A DNA stretch of 64,000 nt. Origin: Polytrichum commune (Eukaryota > Streptophyta > Polytrichopsida > Polytrichales > Polytrichaceae). The first letter of the stretch is position 1, and each line of letters begins with the position of its first letter. The translations under genes were made by a program, and so were the position numbers. The notes beneath the pieces were generated by a model. The model ran no database searches. It was given only the letters and a program-made list of their open reading frames with translations, and had not been told where the DNA came from. This document shows positions 17,278-43,883 of this stretch, one piece after another. The stretch spans positions 44,690,796 through 44,754,795 of the forward strand of contig OX485807.1 of NCBI GenBank assembly GCA_950295325.1, in the 5' to 3' direction.

Positions 17278-19454
17278 ATTGACATAACATTCTCCAACCT
17301 GCAAATGTGTCCTGCTCTCTTTCTATGATAATCTTCTTTTGATTTGCTACCCTCGATCCAAGTTAGGTGAATGCCGAGGCTCAAAGTTGAAAATGAAGGT
17401 GTAGTGTAGGATCGATTGTGGAAGTGATCTTTGTCCATGTCCTATGATAATCACTCTCAAATCTCATGTTCATGGGGAATATGTTGCAAATTAGTGGGGT
17501 CTAAGCTCCAGGTCCCACTCATGCGCATGCTATGAAAGGTGAGTAATGAATTCCAACTAGCCTTGCATGTGGCCAACTTTTTGTTGTAAATTCTAAGGTT
17601 TTTGGGGGGTGTATTCATATAGATGGTGGTGGACGTTTCTAAATGTATTAGAAACAAAGAGATTATTGTTTAAATCAATGTAGTCATATAAGCCATTTAC
17701 CTCTTTCCAACTTGCTATTCACCACACTATGAACTTTGAGTTGATATTTTTATAAACTAATGTGCATTTCAAACTTTGATTTGATCAAGCACTGCATTAT
17801 TTGCTAACCCCTAGATGTCAACCCCCAAAAGTAAACGGGTTTGAGTTAGACAACCTTTCATACATATTCTTTCAATTATTGGGGGGGGGGGGGGGTAATT
17901 TTACAATCGTTTTTGGCTTTGACAAAGTTCTAAGCCAAAGTCTAACATTTTTGCACTCAAAGTTGTCAACATGTTTTTTGACAAATACAAAACACAAGAA
18001 AGGTCTAATATTTGATAAACACAACCACACACACGAATCCAAAGCATTCTGCAAGCACCACTCAAGTCCAATATGGGAGACACCCATACCTAGCCCTTCT
18101 TATTTTTCCCTCACCAAGTAATCAAAGAAAGTATATGTCTATACGCACACGTACTTCAAATTCAACAAGAAGAAACATGAATAGAATCTTCACCAAATCT
18201 GCCATCTTTTGGTGTAGATAATAGTGATGAATATATAGAAATCTTTAAAAATAGAAAATATTCAATTTGGACACCTTTATCGTGGGTGCAACATGGCGGT
18301 ATGGACAAAGGGTTGCCAAGATGTTGATTTTGTAAGGAAATGGCTTAACCCAAGGTCTTAACTTGGATCTAGTGAAACTCCAAGGTTAAGCTACCTAAGG
18401 TTGGAATTGTGCTTGGCTGGATAACCTTCCTAACCCTTCAATTTTTTGATGCACCATATGGCCCAATGGAGTTATCACACATGGGTATAATAGTGAATCA
18501 TATATATTTTCAACCAACCATATGGGAATCCATGGACTTATTGCCTTCTTTTTTGGGGGGGGGGGGCGGGGAGGGGTTGGAAGGTGCATGCCGATTTGGT
18601 TGTGCCTATTCAAGGTGTCCACCTTGAAAGGAGATAGTAGTTTTGTAAACCCTCTGATTTTCATGATGCCCATTTCAAAATTACATATAAACTTAGAAAT
18701 AAACCAACTCAAAGATGAAGCAACACTAGTATAATTCAAAATTTTAGCATTAAAGGAGTAACCTACAAGCATGGAAATGAAGCATAGGTTGAAATTTTAC
18801 TTTTGATTTCAAATTGTTCAATGATTGATTGCTATAGATTAGAATATATAAAATGACTATTACTGTATGTATATGGCCAGTAGAGGCCGGGCCATGGTTT
18901 TTTTTTTATGTCCCTTGTACCTCATCCTAGGCCCTGGTTCCACTAACATTCCTAATCCTCAGGATCAACGAATGTCATCTATAACAAAGTATTCATCCAC
19001 ATTATTCGTCCCATTCTCCCCTTCTCGTCGTCTCTCATTCTGCTTCTCCGAACTCGGAGTGGAGCTGCGGCTGTTGGTGCCGTCGGTGATTGTTTCATCG
19101 CATCGATTCGGCTAAGAGTGATTGGCAAGTCATCTCTGTAACATTTGCCAAGTACTTGCAATCAGTGTTCATCCACATTTTCGTTTCTGGAGGCGATTAA
19201 GATGCAGGGGTTGCGGATAAATTTTATGGTTGTAGGGTTTGCTTGCCCTGTTTCGGAGGGGGCTTCAAAACCCTGCAGCACCGAGCTTGTAACGGATTGG
19301 CAGCCAATTCTGTGAAGGTTAGATTCTTGGGCGTGTCTTCTTTTTATTTATTTCTGCACTTGGACAGAGTTATGTAAATTTATCTGGATTCTTTGGAGCT
19401 TAAGTTGGAGAGGGAGCAGCTTTTGAGCAGAAGCTAGGGTTTGGTGTGGAGGTC
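17278..19454. other. Intergenic region upstream of CACTIN
   Basis: No credible coding exon. It holds a poly-G run of about 16 bases (17881-17896), a second G-rich run near 18556, and the second 5S-headed element. The segment 18880-19454, with CT-rich and GC-richer sequence, is the likely promoter and 5' UTR of the CACTIN gene. Confidence 0.6.
18290..18770 (+). mobile_element. 5S rRNA-headed SINE-like element, copy 2
   Basis: GGATCTAGTGAAACTCC and GTTAAGC are followed after 23 bases by GGCTGGATAACCTTCC, which matches the 5S rRNA C-box (GGATGGGTGACCTCC) beyond the part shared with copy 1. The body matches copy 1 through blocks such as ACCTTGAAAGGAGA and ATTACATATAAACTTAGA. A poly-G run lies in the middle. 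Confidence 0.7.
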
Positions 19455-21326
19455 ATGGGGCATCGAAAGGAGAAGAAACGGGAGAAGAGCCACAAAAGGA
19501 GGAGAAGACAGAGTAGTAGCACAGAAGATTCGGAGAGTGATGATTCGGACAGGAGTCCACCTAGGGTTTCAGTGGAGGATTTGAGGGAATATCAGGCCAA
19601 AAAGGCTCAGAAGAAGGCATTGAAAGTGGCCAAGAGGCTGAAGACATCGACTGTTTCTGGCTACTCCAATGACAGCAATCCTTTTGGCGACTCGAACCTG
19701 ACAGAGAGGTTTGTATGGAGGAAGAAGATAGAAAAGGACCTCACACAAGGGTTGAGTCCCTCAGAAATGTCGTTGAAAGCAGAGAGGAGGCGGCAGAAGG
19801 AGAGGATGGCAGAGATTGAGAAGGTGAAGAAGCGGCGGGAGGAACGCGCAATTGAGAAAGCGAATCATGAGGAGGAGATGGCCATGCTTGCGCGGGAACG
19901 AGCGAGAGCCGAGTATCAAGACTGGGAAAAGAAAGAAGAGGAGTTCCACTTTGAACAGAGCAAAGTTCGATCCGAAATTCGTCTGCGGGAGGGCCGAGCA
20001 AAGCCTATTGATGTGCTTTCTAAGAACCTCAACCTGTCTGAGGATTTCGATACCGAGGTTAGTGAGCCTTATAAAATTTACAGGGGTTTAACAGTGAAGG
20101 AGATGGAGGAGCTGCGCGTCGACATCAAAATGCACCTGGAGTTGGACCGTGCGACTACCACTCACATTGAGTTTTGGGAAGCCATGATGGTAGTTTGTGA
20201 TTGGGAAATTGCACAGGCACGGAAACGAGATGCACTCGACAGGGCAAGGCTGCGAGGAGAGGAGCCTCCTCATGACCTTGTCGCAGATGACCTGGGTCTC
20301 CATGGGGTAGATGATGAAGTAGATCGTATGTTGAAGGACCAGACTGTAGCAGAGTTAAATAATCTGCAAGAGCAAACAGAGGCAAAGATGCAGACAGGCA
20401 CTGCACAGGTGGTGGAGTACTGGGAGGCGGTACTGAAGCGGCTGCATATATACAAAGCTAAGGCTCGATTGAGGGAAATACATGCTGGCTTGCAACGACA
20501 GCACTTTGAACGAATCGAGTATGTTGATGGAGGAGACAGACGTCCAGTCAGGGAAGAAATCGATGTGGTCGAAGAAAGACAGCCTGCGGGTGGATGGGAT
20601 GAGGTTGAAGCAGTCTCTCCAGAGCCAATGCAAGAAAGGCCAGCACCAGAGGACGAGGAAGACGCTGGGAATTACTCCCCCGAACCAGTTCAGGAGTTTG
20701 ATGCAGCTGATGTCTTGGATCCTGAAGCAGACAAAGCTGATCTGGAGAGAAAGAGGGCTGAAGTTTTGGATGAGCAGCAGCGCAGATTACAGGAGGCAGC
20801 TGCTAGGCCGACAGCTTTAGACGAGGATCCACTTGAACTTACAGCCCCAGAGCGAGCCCTGGTCCTGAAAGCCATGGGCGGAATGGACGAGGGCGATGCA
20901 ATGCTTGGTTCAGGAGCAGAGGTCAATCTCGAATCGCAGGTATATTGGTGGCACGATAAGTACAGGCCTAGGAAGCCGAAATACTTCAACAGGGTGCACA
21001 CAGGATATGAGTGGAACAAGTACAACCAGACGCATTACGATCATGATAACCCACCGCCAAAGATTGTCCAAGGCTACAAATTCAACATTTTCTATCCGGA
21101 TCTCGTCGACAAGACGAAAGCACCCACATACTTCATCGAGAGAGATGGGAGCAACGGAGAAACATGTCTCATCCGCTTCCATGCTGGCCCTCCTTATGAA
21201 GACATCGCTTTTCGGATTGTGAACAAGGAGTGGGAATACTCCCACAAGAAAGGGTTCAAGTGCACATTTGAGCGTGGAATCCTTCATGTTTACTTCAATT
21301 TCAAGAGATATAGGTATCGCCGTTAG
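19455..21326 (+). CDS. CACTIN: CACTIN, spliceosome-associated protein
   Basis: An uninterrupted frame of 623 residues. Cactin proteins are conserved nuclear factors of the spliceosomal C complex needed for efficient pre-mRNA splicing. The first 40 residues are a Lys/Arg and Ser/Asp-rich basic region (start MGHRKEKKREKSHKRRRR), as usual for speckle-localised splicing proteins. Residues about 60-180 are a charged helical stretch. Residues about 185-355 match the cactin mid domain (KPIDVLSKNLNL, EFWEAMMVVCDWE, VVEYWEAVLKRL). An acidic linker follows. The last 125 residues are the highly conserved C-terminal cactin domain (YWWHDKYRPRKPKYFNRVHT, FKRYRYRR at the very end). The ATG at 19455 fits the family N-terminus. 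The gene has no intron, unlike its neighbours. Length is near the usual plant size. Confidence 0.95.
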   Translation: MGHRKEKKREKSHKRRRRQSSSTEDSESDDSDRSPPRVSVEDLREYQAKKAQKKALKVAKRLKTSTVSGYSNDSNPFGDSNLTERFVWRKKIEKDLTQGLSPSEMSLKAERRRQKERMAEIEKVKKRREERAIEKANHEEEMAMLARERARAEYQDWEKKEEEFHFEQSKVRSEIRLREGRAKPIDVLSKNLNLSEDFDTEVSEPYKIYRGLTVKEMEELRVDIKMHLELDRATTTHIEFWEAMMVVCDWEIAQARKRDALDRARLRGEEPPHDLVADDLGLHGVDDEVDRMLKDQTVAELNNLQEQTEAKMQTGTAQVVEYWEAVLKRLHIYKAKARLREIHAGLQRQHFERIEYVDGGDRRPVREEIDVVEERQPAGGWDEVEAVSPEPMQERPAPEDEEDAGNYSPEPVQEFDAADVLDPEADKADLERKRAEVLDEQQRRLQEAAARPTALDEDPLELTAPERALVLKAMGGMDEGDAMLGSGAEVNLESQVYWWHDKYRPRKPKYFNRVHTGYEWNKYNQTHYDHDNPPPKIVQGYKFNIFYPDLVDKTKAPTYFIERDGSNGETCLIRFHAGPPYEDIAFRIVNKEWEYSHKKGFKCTFERGILHVYFNFKRYRYRR

Positions 21327-24082: not shown

Positions 24083-27000
24083 ATGGCGCTTTCATGTGTT
24101 TCGAAACCGCCGTCGCTCCTGTCTTCGCACGCTTCTCGAGTCGGCGGTGTCGGTTCGTTTCCCCGCCAGGCCGTGCGGTTATTAGTAGTGAATGTGCGGC
24201 CATTGTCACGACAAGTTAAGGTTAAGGTGCATGCCAGTAATAACACGCGGCTGGTGACTTTTGTTGGAAAAGGAGGAGCAGGCAAAACCACTGCCGCTGT
24301 TCTTGCTGCTCAGGTGCGCCATTTGTAGTGGTTTTCACGTAGCATCCATTGTGTGATTGGTGTCACAACTTCTAGTGTTGTGTATCGAGTGGTTCTCCTC
24401 CTTTGATTGTCGCGCACAGTCTGCTGGTGCCGTTTCTGGCTCAATAGCCCGTCCTTTGGCACTGGATTATGTCAATTTCTAATTTATCGTCAATCAGAGC
24501 GCGCCAATTCGAGAGTGAGGTTCGTTTGAAGTGTGCGGCCGAGCCGTTGAGCTCAATTGTTTTGGGACATTAAGAGTTGCCTGTACACAAAGGAATGTGG
24601 AGGAGGAGGGAAGATCGCTGCTAATGTTCTTGCTGCTCAGATGTGCTCCTCCGCCATTGTAGTAGTTTCTAGCATCGACTGTGTGATTGGTGTCTAAACT
24701 TTTAATGTTTTGTGTGGAGTAGTCCCCCCCCCCCGTTTGATTGTCAACTATAGCTGTCTGGTGCTGTTTCTGGCTCAATAGCCCAGTCCTGTGGCACCGG
24801 ATTACGCCATCGTCCAATTTATTGCCGATCAGTGGGCGCAAATTCGAGAGTGAAGTGTGCAGCCAAGCTGTCCATCTCAATTCCTTTCAGGACATTAATA
24901 GTCGCCTGGTACAGAATTGAATGCGGAGGAGCAGCTAAAACTACTGCCGCTTAGGTGTGCTCCTCCGCTATTGTAGTGGTTTCTACGTAGCATCGACTGT
25001 GCGATTGGCGTCTCAACTTCTAGTATTGTGTGAAGAGTGGTCTCCTCCTTTGGTTCTTGCGCACAGTCGTCTGGTGCCGTTCTGGCTCAATAGCCCGGTA
25101 CTTTGGCACGGAATTACGTTATCGTCTGATTTATCACCGATCAGAGGGCGCGCATTCGAGGGTGAGGTTCATTTGAAGTGTGTAGCCTAGCTGTTGAGCT
25201 CAATTTTTAGGATAATTGTTGCCTGGTACACTAAGGAATAGGAGGAGCAGGCAAGGTTATTGCCACTGTTCTTGCTGCTCAGATGTGCTCCGCGGTCATT
25301 GTAGTGGTTTTTAGCATCGACTGGTGTCTCAACTTAGATAGTATAGTGTGTGGAGTGGTTCTCCTTTAATTGTCGTGCTCTGTCTTCTGGTGCCATTTCT
25401 GCCTCAACAGCCCGTCCTTTTGGCACTGGATTACGTCATCTTCCGATTCATTGCCGATCAGAGGCCGGAAATTCGAGAATGAGGTTTCTTTGAAGTGTGT
25501 AGCCAAGCTGTTGATCTCAACTCTTTGTAGGACAATAATAGTCGCCTGGTACACAAGGGAATGCTCCTCCTCGAATCCAGACTTTCATAATTACTAATTC
25601 CATATTTTGAAAATTTGCCTGTGCGTGCAAGTGTGTACACAAGCATAAACAAATGGCGGTTGGAGAAATTTCGATCTTCGTGTAGAGGAGCATTCCAAGC
25701 TGTTGATTCCTGCTTTTTAGTTTGAAGCAGAAGTTTCTTATAGATTGAATGGCGTTTCAGACTTCCACCTGCTTATTAGGTCTCCTATTGCAAAAGTACA
25801 GGCGATTAGTTTTTAATGGCTGTAAGAATCGTTGATACAAAGTCATCAACTATTTCCTGTAACTATCCAACAATTCAAATGGTCACTTGGTTGCAGCCTC
25901 CTATAATTGCAAAATCAGCACGATCTGCAAAAATCCTTTTCACTCGCACTATGTCGTTTAAACATGCAAGTTATCATGTCTTGATAACAAACTTAAGAGG
26001 GGGTTGATTAGTGGAGGTGATGGTGAATACTGTTGCGGTGGATTCACAGGGGGCAACGTCAAGGGATTGGCAGGCAGAAGCTGAAAGTTCAAAAGGGGCC
26101 ATAACCAGTGTGGTTGCTGCGTGTGCAGTACTACGCCAGCACTGGCTTGCGCACCTGCCTCCTTGTACAATCTCAAGACCCCACCGCTGATGTCCTCCTT
26201 GGTGTAAAGCTAGGTATTACTCCTACTTCATTCAGAGATGGCAGTCTCACTGCTTTTCGACTTGAAACAACCAAGGTATTTTTGGCTTCGAGATCTTCTT
26301 GCTGATTAGGGTAGAGTTTCTGATCATGGATAGCTGTAGTCGGGCTGTAGTCTTTCTGCTTGACAAATTGAATCTGATTGGCTAATCAACTCGTGTAACA
26401 GAATGTTTGTAGGAGTCAAGTAAGATCATTTAGACTTTTGGTTGGATTCTGGGTGAGTATGTGACTCATACAACTGCGCGCGTTGTGATTTGGCATGGCG
26501 CTTGTGTTTAGATGCTCATTGAGCCCTTGGCTCAGATCAAGAATGCAGATACGCGCCTCAATTTTAGTCAAGGAGCTCTGGATGAGGTACACACTCAACT
26601 CGAGGGAGGGTCACAAGATGGACATGCATGAGCTAAGAATTCTAAGAATGCCACCCACGTATTTTTGCACGTCCAAATCTCCTTTACAGCAGTCATTCTT
26701 TATCCTGCCAGTGTAACTCAAATGTTAGATTATCTGAGATGAGGTGCATTTGAAATTCTAGGTAGTTGGTGAAGAGCTGAGTGTGCTCCCAGGGATGGAT
26801 CCTATTTTGGCGATGGGTGCAATTGAACGTCTTACAGGCTTCAGTGGGCTTTCTAAAGGAGCGGGGAAGAAAGATGAGAAGGATTATGACGTTGTTGTGT
26901 ATGACGGTCGAAACAGTGAGGAAGTTTGTCGAATGTTTGGGTCAGCTGAGAGAGCAAGGTAACTCTTCGATTGATACATTGTAAGCCGTTTATCATCAAA

Positions 27001-28203
27001 AAGTGTACTTTTCTGCCAGTATAAGCCTAGTTTCATCTGTTGAACTTGCAGAGATTGTGCTCAAGTACAAGCACCTCTCGTATCTGTTCACCCAGGTATA
27101 TAAGTTTATAACTCCCTCGTCTATACTGGATGTCCAGATGGTATGCTAGCCGATTGCGAGCCATTGCAGAGAAGACAGATACAGGACGGATGGCCTTCCC
27201 TTCGTTTATGAAATTCATGGAAGGCGCATTTCTTGATGAAGGCAAAGCAACTACGAGATCAACAAATGAGATCTGGGAAACAAGTGATCGCATCCTTTCG
27301 GTATGTAGCACTGCCTGGAGTATTCTGCCCAGTTCTCAACATGCCTTTTCAGGCTTGTTGAAGTTTCTCACATTCTGTTTGTCAGGCTTTGTTCTTGATA
27401 AGCATGTAAGAGTATGTTGGTGAATGACATGTCTAACATTTTGGCTATCGATGCAGAGGGTTGTTGAAACATTTCAAGACCCGAAAAGATTCTCGTGTTT
27501 CTTGGTTACAAATCTAAACAACCCCATATCAGTTGATACAGCCCTACGCTACTGGGGATGTGCAACCCAAGCAGGAGCATATGTAGCCGGCGCTCTTTAC
27601 CCCCCCTCTTCTGAAGCATCACCTCCAAACGCTGCATTACAGGAGAAGTTCTTACCTCTGAAAGTTGCAGGTGTACCTCACGTCTCATTTGGCTCTCCGC
27701 CAGATTGGAATGAGACTTTAGAAAGGTTGAGTCAGGAAGCTAAAGGCGTTCTGAATGGAACAAGTCAAGCCCAACCTATCCCCCATCCTGTCGTCTTTGA
27801 CCAATCAGCACGAACTGTAACACTCTTTTTGCCTGGCTTTCAGAAGTCAGACGTGAAACTATCACAGGTATATGTTCTCCTCTGTTGTTGGCATTTATGC
27901 AAATAACCATTGTTGCAACCAAGTTTATCTCTATTGTTTGGCCATACTTGCAGTATCATTTGAATTGTGGAAGTTGTGTTTGAACTAGCAGCATACCCCT
28001 GATTCAGGAGTGGTAATGTTCCATTGTATGTGACAAACAAATGACATTCTAAACCTTGAATGCAGTGGAGGGGAGGATCTGAGTTACTGGTTGAAGCTGG
28101 GGATCAGCGACGCAGTGTAGTACTGCCTGCTGCCATGCGCGGCAAGGTTGCAGCAGCCAAGTTCCAGGACAAGAGCTTGATTGTCACAATTAAAGCCCGT
28201 TGA
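24083..28203 (+). CDS. GET3D: GET3D: chloroplast ArsA/GET3-like ATPase with C-terminal alpha-crystallin domain
   Basis: Seven exons join in frame: 24083-24313, 26129-26275, 26512-26586, 26762-26958, 27138-27300, 27457-27867 and 28066-28203, giving 453 residues. That is about the size of Arabidopsis At1g26090. The Ser/Arg-rich first 50 residues look like a plastid transit peptide. The deviant P-loop [10 protein letters not shown] is at residues 61-70. A switch I-like QSQDPTA lies in exon 2, and a switch II-region equivalent ([11 protein letters not shown]) in exon 4. Residues about 378-453 form a beta-rich domain of alpha-crystallin type ([17 protein letters not shown] to SLIVTIKAR), the hallmark that separates GET3D from GET3A-C. 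Family members are dimeric ATPases of photosynthetic organisms; their client is unsettled. All introns are GT-AG. Intron 1 (1815 bp) is odd: it contains tandem copies of the end of exon 1. Confidence 0.93.
24272..25562 (+). repeat. Tandem array of partial GET3D exon 1 plus intron sequence (four units of about 320 bp)
   Basis: Units begin at 24272 (the real P-loop exon), 24599, 24925 and 25241, and the array ends near 25562; periods are 327, 326, 316 and about 321 bp. Each unit starts with GGAGGAG and, where intact, runs to TTGCTGCTCAG, the end of exon 1, then continues with the same intron text (GTGGTTTCT, GGCTCAATAGCCC, CCGATCAG, GTCGCCTGGTACA). In exon frame the copies read [23 protein letters not shown] then stop, and [14 protein letters not shown]. 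In units 2 and 4 the donor GT after CAG is AT. The copies are decayed pseudo-exons, old but still easily aligned. Confidence 0.9.
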
Positions 28204-31444: not shown

Positions 31445-32085
31445 TCCATGAAATACTCCACATTCCATGCTCAATTTGACTTGCATGTGGACTCTCCATT
31501 CCTTGCTCTATCTCACTCGCATGTGGACTCCCCCCATTCCTTGCTCTACTTGATTTGCATGTGGACTCTCCATCCCTTGCTCTATCCAACTCATAGGAGG
31601 ACTCTTCACTATTCACTCCTCAATCCAACTCACACATAAGCTCCATGTATCTTGCACTATCCAACTCATAGGTGGAGTCCTCCTTATATCCTCCTTCGTC
31701 TTATTCATACATGGGCTCCCAATTCCCTGCTCTATCCAACTCATAGATGAACTCCTCCCTATATCCTACCCTCTCTGACTCCTACGTGGGCTCCCTAATC
31801 CAGCCTGCTTTTTGCAACTCATACATGGGCTCCCTAATTGTTGTTATGTCCAATTCATGTGTGAGCTCCTTGATCCTTGTTTTATATGATTTGTAGGTGG
31901 ACTCCTCTCTATTTCTAGCCATGTTTGACTCATACATACATGGGTTGTTTGTTCCCTGATCTATCTGACTCAAAGATGGACTCATCTTTATTTCTTGTCC
32001 TATTTGACTCACGCATAGGCTTCGTGTTTCTTGCTTTGTTTGACTCATAGGTAGAACCTCCCTATATCATGCCATGTGCAACTCA
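31445..32085 (-). repeat. Degenerate tandem array of 12/13-codon repeats
   Basis: About 16-17 units end in a motif like CATRNRTGGACTC on the plus strand. Unit lengths are 36 or 39 bp almost throughout; the two exceptions I measured are 38 and 43. On the minus strand the units translate to a loose repeat such as ESPHASEIEQGM or STYKSYKTRIKEL, with long open stretches at 31374-31616 and 31782-32048. Lengths in multiples of three suggest the array arose or was kept as coding sequence. It now has interruptions and no visible gene context, so it may be a dead repeat-protein exon or a minisatellite. Confidence 0.6.
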
Positions 32086-43262: not shown

Positions 43263-43883
43263 TAGTAATCTCCCGATTAAGTACACGCCCGTTTAAGTAC
43301 GCATCATGGTTAAGTGCGCAATTTTTTTGACAAAAGTTAGGGTTCATACTTTATTGTTTGAACATCTCATGTAGAGTCATTAGCCGTGAATGCATGATTT
43401 TTTTACACTTGACATTCAATGTCAGTTTGTTAACGTTTCGCTGGAACATCTCAAACGATCATCACAGTTCATCATACATCTATCCAGCTTGTGTTTGAAC
43501 ATCGGAGCAAAGCAATTGGTCGTCGATATCAAGAACAACGTTGTGTGGAGCTTCAAAGTCTTTGAAGTCAGTAGCACTTTCATATTCAAGTTTCATCTGT
43601 TTTCCGTTTTTCAAATGATCATCACAGTTCATCGTACATTTATCCAACTTTTGTTTGAACATTGGAGCAAAGCAATTGGTCATCAATGTCGAGGACAATG
43701 TTGTGTAGAGCTTCAAAGCCTTTGAAATCGGTAGCACTTTTCATATTCAAGTTTCATTCGTTTTCCGTTGCGATTTATCGAATCAGAAGGTCTAGAAAAC
43801 GATATAAGTAAAGTACGCACCTACCAACTAAGTGCGCACCAACCGCTATGGTTCAAAGTGTGTACTTAAGCGGGAGATTATTG
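43263..43883 (-). mobile_element. Tc1/mariner-like non-autonomous element, copy 2, with internal 160-bp tandem duplication
   Basis: TA flanks lie at 43261-43262 and 43884-43885. The ends read AGTAATCTCCCGATTAAGTA and, in inverse, CAATAATCTCCCGCTTAAG. It is inverted relative to copy 1. A block starting GATCATCACAGTTCATC occurs at 43457 and again at 43617, giving a direct duplication of about 160 bp that copy 1 lacks. Confidence 0.75.

Follow-up and report, generated by a model that had tools for sequence, protein, structure and literature searches.

Within the first intron of a GET3D gene, the end of exon 1 recurs together with its downstream intron, and the question is whether the copies serve the gene, as exons that vary its nucleotide-binding loop or adjust its expression, or are leftovers of a duplication. 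We addressed it in a window of 64,000 nucleotides (the whole stretch of DNA that was analysed) and in searches of the 408-Mb genome. The array is, in our judgement, very probably a neutral tandem duplication of the exon-intron boundary that has since decayed.

The GET3D gene and its first intron

Seven exons on the plus strand of the window (Table 1) splice together into a 453-amino-acid open frame that ends in TGA (28201-28203), a complete GET3D gene. The name, given in the preliminary description, was borne out by the spliced protein, which matched the Pfam families ArsA_ATPase (E 1.5e-14) and ArsA_HSP20 (E 5.7e-12; residues 391-449, the C-terminal alpha-crystallin/HSP20 domain) and contains the Walker A sequence GKGGAGKTT behind an N-terminal extension of about 54 amino acids. 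Among solved structures only, its top match was Arabidopsis At1g26090 (8elf, E 7.4e-114); Nostoc All4481 (3igf) gave E 5.4e-46, and the next best was 2.2e-6. Compared with its own genome, the protein gave seven matches, all seven at the present locus, from which the gene appears to be single-copy.

In PMC10248533, At1g26090 GET3D is described as a Get3/ArsA ATPase with a C-terminal alpha-crystallin domain and as a chloroplast protein in Arabidopsis; the words intron and exon are absent from that paper. Against this description, the protein found here has the same domain plan and shows nothing unusual, and the difference lies in intron 1, which is enlarged here. It measures 1815 nt, versus 156-236 nt for the remaining five introns, and the array occupies most of it. 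The array notwithstanding, the gene is otherwise intact. Elsewhere in the window, a 640-amino-acid open frame (stop to stop; 19404-21326, plus strand) matched cactin, with the Pfam families Cactin_mid and CactinC_cactus, and no RNA families (at the gathering threshold) or tRNAs were found.

Table 1. Features of the GET3D locus, in window coordinates (a slash marks the exon-intron junction).
Feature	Position	Strand	Remarks
GET3D exon 1	24083-24313	+	N-terminal extension and Walker A loop; open frame joins six further exons; genome match to residues 1-78
Source of copied exon end	24266-24313	+	16-residue stretch; homology clear from 24272
GET3D intron 1	24314-26128	+	1815 nt, from exon coordinates
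Unit 1	24272-24598	+	Working exon end and first intron unit
Unit 2	24599-24924	+	Decayed copy; donor GT gone, CAG/AT
Unit 3	24925-25240	+	Decayed copy; 12 nt deleted; exon end terminates in an in-frame TAG; donor GT retained
Unit 4	25241-25562	+	Decayed copy; donor GT gone, CAG/AT
Hypothetical 64-nt unit 3 exon	24891-24954	+	Acceptor-like CCTTTCAG upstream, donor-like TAG/GTGTGC at end; frame-shifting, TGA after 9 codons
Intron 1 acceptor region	26081-26128	+	Weak similarity to exon 1 end; possible older copy
GET3D exons 2-7	26129-26275, 26512-26586, 26762-26958, 27138-27300, 27457-27867, 28066-28203	+	Spliced frame open

Extent and divergence of the array

Four repeats about 320 bp apart had been reported, and their starts (24272, 24599, 24925, and 25241) and the end at 25562 agreed with the sequence, the units being 316-327 bp long. 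The array was recovered in three ways. Between 22000 and 28000, Tandem Repeats Finder returned a single array at 24317-25482 (period 317, 3.6 copies, score 847), a repeat finder gave four collinear copies with spacings of 335/312/317, and in BLASTN of units 1 and 4 against the window the other units were hit at E 2e-51 to 1e-74, with the next best match at E 0.20. The array is real and far beyond chance. Every extra unit starts by repeating the final 42-48 nt of exon 1. The repeated part had been equated exactly with the Walker A coding sequence; it does contain Walker A sequence, but only the later part, and homology is clean from about 24266-24272. A repeat reaching further upstream in exon 1, suggested by the unit tails (AATAGTCGCCTGGTAC...), was rejected, although a short stretch is possible: the tail consensus reached a shuffle p of 0.46 locally (with 1259 of 4002 window positions doing as well) and 0.44 globally (1330 of 4002). 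Single tails ranged over p 0.02-0.98, that of unit 2 alone giving 0.02-0.04 in the local and two of the three anchored tests and that of unit 4 giving 0.02 in one anchored shuffle test.

When the array and unit 4 were searched against the 408-Mb genome (best candidates scored, very common words skipped), no match turned up outside the present locus, and a dispersed repeat family was rejected on this ground. The remainder of intron 1 (25563-26128) likewise matched only itself in the genome search. At 25695-25707, outside the array, it contains 13 nt identical to part of the unit 4 tail (CCAAGCTGTTGAT), which may be due to chance (E 0.70). A perfect 12-nt inverted repeat (25558-25569/25685-25696), flanked by AAG on both sides, begins at the right edge of the array; a mobile element there was considered and is not supported, 25549-25720 being single copy in the genome search. 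The window holds further tandem repeats at 31461-31827 (overlapping arrays with periods of 36 and about 75) and at 43451-43769 (a pair of 160-bp units with 88% matches).

The units are 77-80% identical pairwise, the six K2P distances range between 0.23 and 0.28, and the quartet site support for the three possible groupings is star-like (5/7/7). In ungapped columns, every unit carries 17-22 private substitutions, and the units also differ by indels. The quartet support and distances suggest a rapid expansion followed by independent divergence of the units. Expansion by dimers (units 1 and 2, then 3 and 4), to which the lost donor and the 4-nt gap shared by units 2 and 4 might point, is not supported, given the quartet counts. 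A neutral rate of 5 to 9e-9 per site and year would very roughly place the array at 12-28 million years, an order of magnitude only, since the rate of the host species may differ from the one assumed. The same divergence of 20-23%, with private substitutions and indels in every unit, is unlike that of duplicated contig ends and makes an assembly artefact hardly credible.

Decay and splicing potential of the copied exon ends

Two copies had been said to lack the donor GT and one to carry a stop, and this was the case. The donor is CAG/GT in unit 1 (the real one), CAG/AT in units 2 and 4 (lost), and TAG/GT in unit 3 (kept), and in the P-loop frame unit 3 has 12 nt missing and a terminal TAG stop. 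The impression that the copies still read like P-loops in frame held for units 2 and 4; in none of the copies is Walker A intact. Preceding GGAGKTT, the working exon has GK, versus EC, EC, and GI in the copies, so that the leading lysine is present in none of the three, and the remaining motif is altered in every copy (GGGGKI in unit 2, GGAAKTT in unit 3, GGAGKV in unit 4).

We compared exon and intron parts of the units over only 36-48 aligned exon positions, a span that makes the rate comparison coarse. Among the extra copies, exon-part identity was 0.72 (units 2 and 3), 0.75 (units 2 and 4), and 0.69 (units 3 and 4), versus 0.79-0.80 for the intron part. Relative to the working exon, units 2 and 3 scored 0.75 and 0.778, with introns at 0.777 and 0.803, and their exon part is thus not better kept; that of unit 4 is closer (0.854) than its intron (0.795), which counts against neutral decay. 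With the exon part diverged about as much as the intron part, no coding constraint on the copies is visible, nor is there any sign of the P-loop being kept. Just after the donor, unit 1 (24314-24325) lacks about 8 nt (TGCTCCTC) that are present in units 2-4; in units 2 and 3 the TGCTCCTC stretch is complementary to the exon-end GGAGGAG, a putative hairpin that the working copy lacks.

Splice sites were then scored with rough plant matrices drawn from general knowledge, and candidate exons of 20-350 nt were considered. The real exon 1 donor had the top score among the 144 GT sites scanned, itself included. There were 1231 acceptor-donor pairs that included a copy, and only 10 of them, all via unit 2, were in frame and open, the best scoring -4.5 versus a top value of 6.6 among all pairs. 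Sites this poor do not uphold the proposed isoform in which the nucleotide-binding loop would be repeated or altered. More generally, it is extremely unlikely that the copies are coding alternative exons, mutually exclusive or cassette, that yield isoforms whose P-loop is duplicated or altered: units 2 and 4 do give P-loop-like peptides in frame, but their donors are gone, unit 3 has its stop, and GKGGxGK[ST] occurs in none of the three.

The 12 best-scoring pairs all take in unit 3 and all hit a stop in the phase-0 frame. Another reading is a poison exon, by which 24891-24954 would sometimes be spliced between exons 1 and 2, its stop leading to nonsense-mediated decay and so tuning the GET3D level. 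The acceptor-like site at 24891, in the tail of unit 2, scores 3.9, versus 0.0-2.3 for GET3D's six real acceptors, which counts against neutral decay, as does the GT kept by unit 3. The value of 2.3 is also surpassed at four further intronic AG sites (25731, which scores 4.1 and lies outside the array, 25531, 24641, and 25283), and the matrix therefore discriminates poorly. The GT donor at 24954 (1.4) scores lower than each of the six real donors (2.4-5.1), the acceptor-like tract also appears in other units, these being copies, with no AG there in unit 1, and the unit comparison bears no sign of constraint. Regulation through such an exon is quite improbable; since 24891 scores above the six acceptors, however, this 64-nt stop-bearing exon is the one candidate splicing event of note and worth looking for.

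Origin of the array and comparison with known systems

A more far-reaching possibility is that tandem copying of the exon end gave rise to intron 1 itself or lengthened it; the acceptor (26128) would then be a copy, diverged further, of the sequence that supplied the donor CAG/GT. The copied exon ends (TTCTTGCTGCTCAG) do resemble a 3' splice site, scoring 2.8 as acceptors. When the 48 nt before 26129 were aligned with the exon 1 end, their score was reached by 0.4% of the 502 CAG-ending sites and 0.34% of the 3504 AG-ending sites, with the other five acceptors at fractions of 0.21-0.81, and 2% of positions did as well when the start of exon 2 was compared with that of intron 1. The values for the CAG-ending sites and for exon 2 are, however, among 16 uncorrected comparisons over several lengths and units that span 0.004-0.73: units 2-4 gave 0.08-0.57 at 48 nt and 0.31-0.50 for their intron starts, and comparisons at 80-110 nt gave 0.028-0.73. 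At 20 and 30 nt, the intron 4 acceptor outscored that of intron 1. Because the result varies in this way with length and unit, and the intron 4 acceptor is higher at 20-30 nt, the apparent likeness of the acceptor region to the exon 1 end is a lead only, and such an origin of the intron is quite improbable. The two readings can be joined: repeated duplication of the P-loop exon end would have given rise to intron 1 or enlarged it, the acceptor at 26128 would come from the oldest copy, the array would consist of the younger ones, and unit 3 would be a poison exon; we regard this combination as very unlikely.

Neutral duplication followed by decay, the preferred explanation, would have proceeded as follows. 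The segment that begins near the exon 1 end (24266-24272) and runs through about 320 bp of intron 1 would have been tandemly duplicated and would soon have grown to four units. Unit 1 would have stayed the working exon end, as it joins the true upstream coding sequence and has the highest-scoring donor in the scanned stretch, while units 2-4, lying inside intron 1, would be removed with it, neutral drift costing them donors, frame, and motif residues. The copies are probably unused. An integer number of units lies between two clean ends, as simple tandem duplication gives, and GGAA stands at both break points (24266 and 25558), which would be compatible with microhomology as the duplication mechanism. 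The early characterization of the locus, an exon end duplicated in tandem with its intron and caught in decay, is supported by the four collinear units and their losses of donors, frame, and motif residues.

For background, we ran Tandem Repeats Finder on 20 evenly spaced 10-kb stretches of the same contig and kept arrays with three or more copies and a period of 100 or more. Two arrays in these 200 kb reached the thresholds, one of them with a score of at least 800; they lie at L023:6870-7622 (period 250 x 3.0) and L030:2641-3395 (period 192 x 4.0). Arrays of such size are not rare here, the rate being a loose one from two events in one sampled contig, and it is therefore not surprising that one landed on an exon-intron boundary.

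Dscam is an example of a mutually exclusive exon cluster. The likeness to such clusters, as the available part of PMC9013439 presents them, is that of tandem copies of coding exon sequence; the difference is that no copy here combines a splice-site pair, an open frame, and the motif, units 2 and 4 having no donor to go with an acceptor and unit 3 having a stop instead of a kept frame. With intron gain by tandem duplication, the locus has in common that the duplicated segment spans a plant exon-intron boundary and carries splice signals; here, however, the copies sit inside an existing intron, and a new intron is not demonstrated. Were the acceptor an older copy, the locus would become a case of such gain, and were unit 3 spliced, it would record a step from duplication to regulation.

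The closest likeness is to degenerate exon duplications. Exon duplication into introns, degenerate cases included, is a known class: in the parts of the sources available, partly degenerate intronic matches to exons are reported for Exonize (PMC12343006) and among tandem exon duplications (PMC9013439), mainly in animals, the word plant being absent from the former. In both settings, exon sequence was copied into the neighboring intron of the same gene and partly degenerated; here, in contrast to these accounts as far as they extend, the copy comprises an exon end plus intron in a four-unit tandem, not a full exon. The copies nonetheless lie in tandem within one gene and have lost coding and splice signals, as degenerate tandem exon duplications do. 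The array shows how an intron lengthens and how cryptic splice sites originate, and it is a clean case of tandem multiplication of an exon-intron boundary, followed by decay, within an intact gene.
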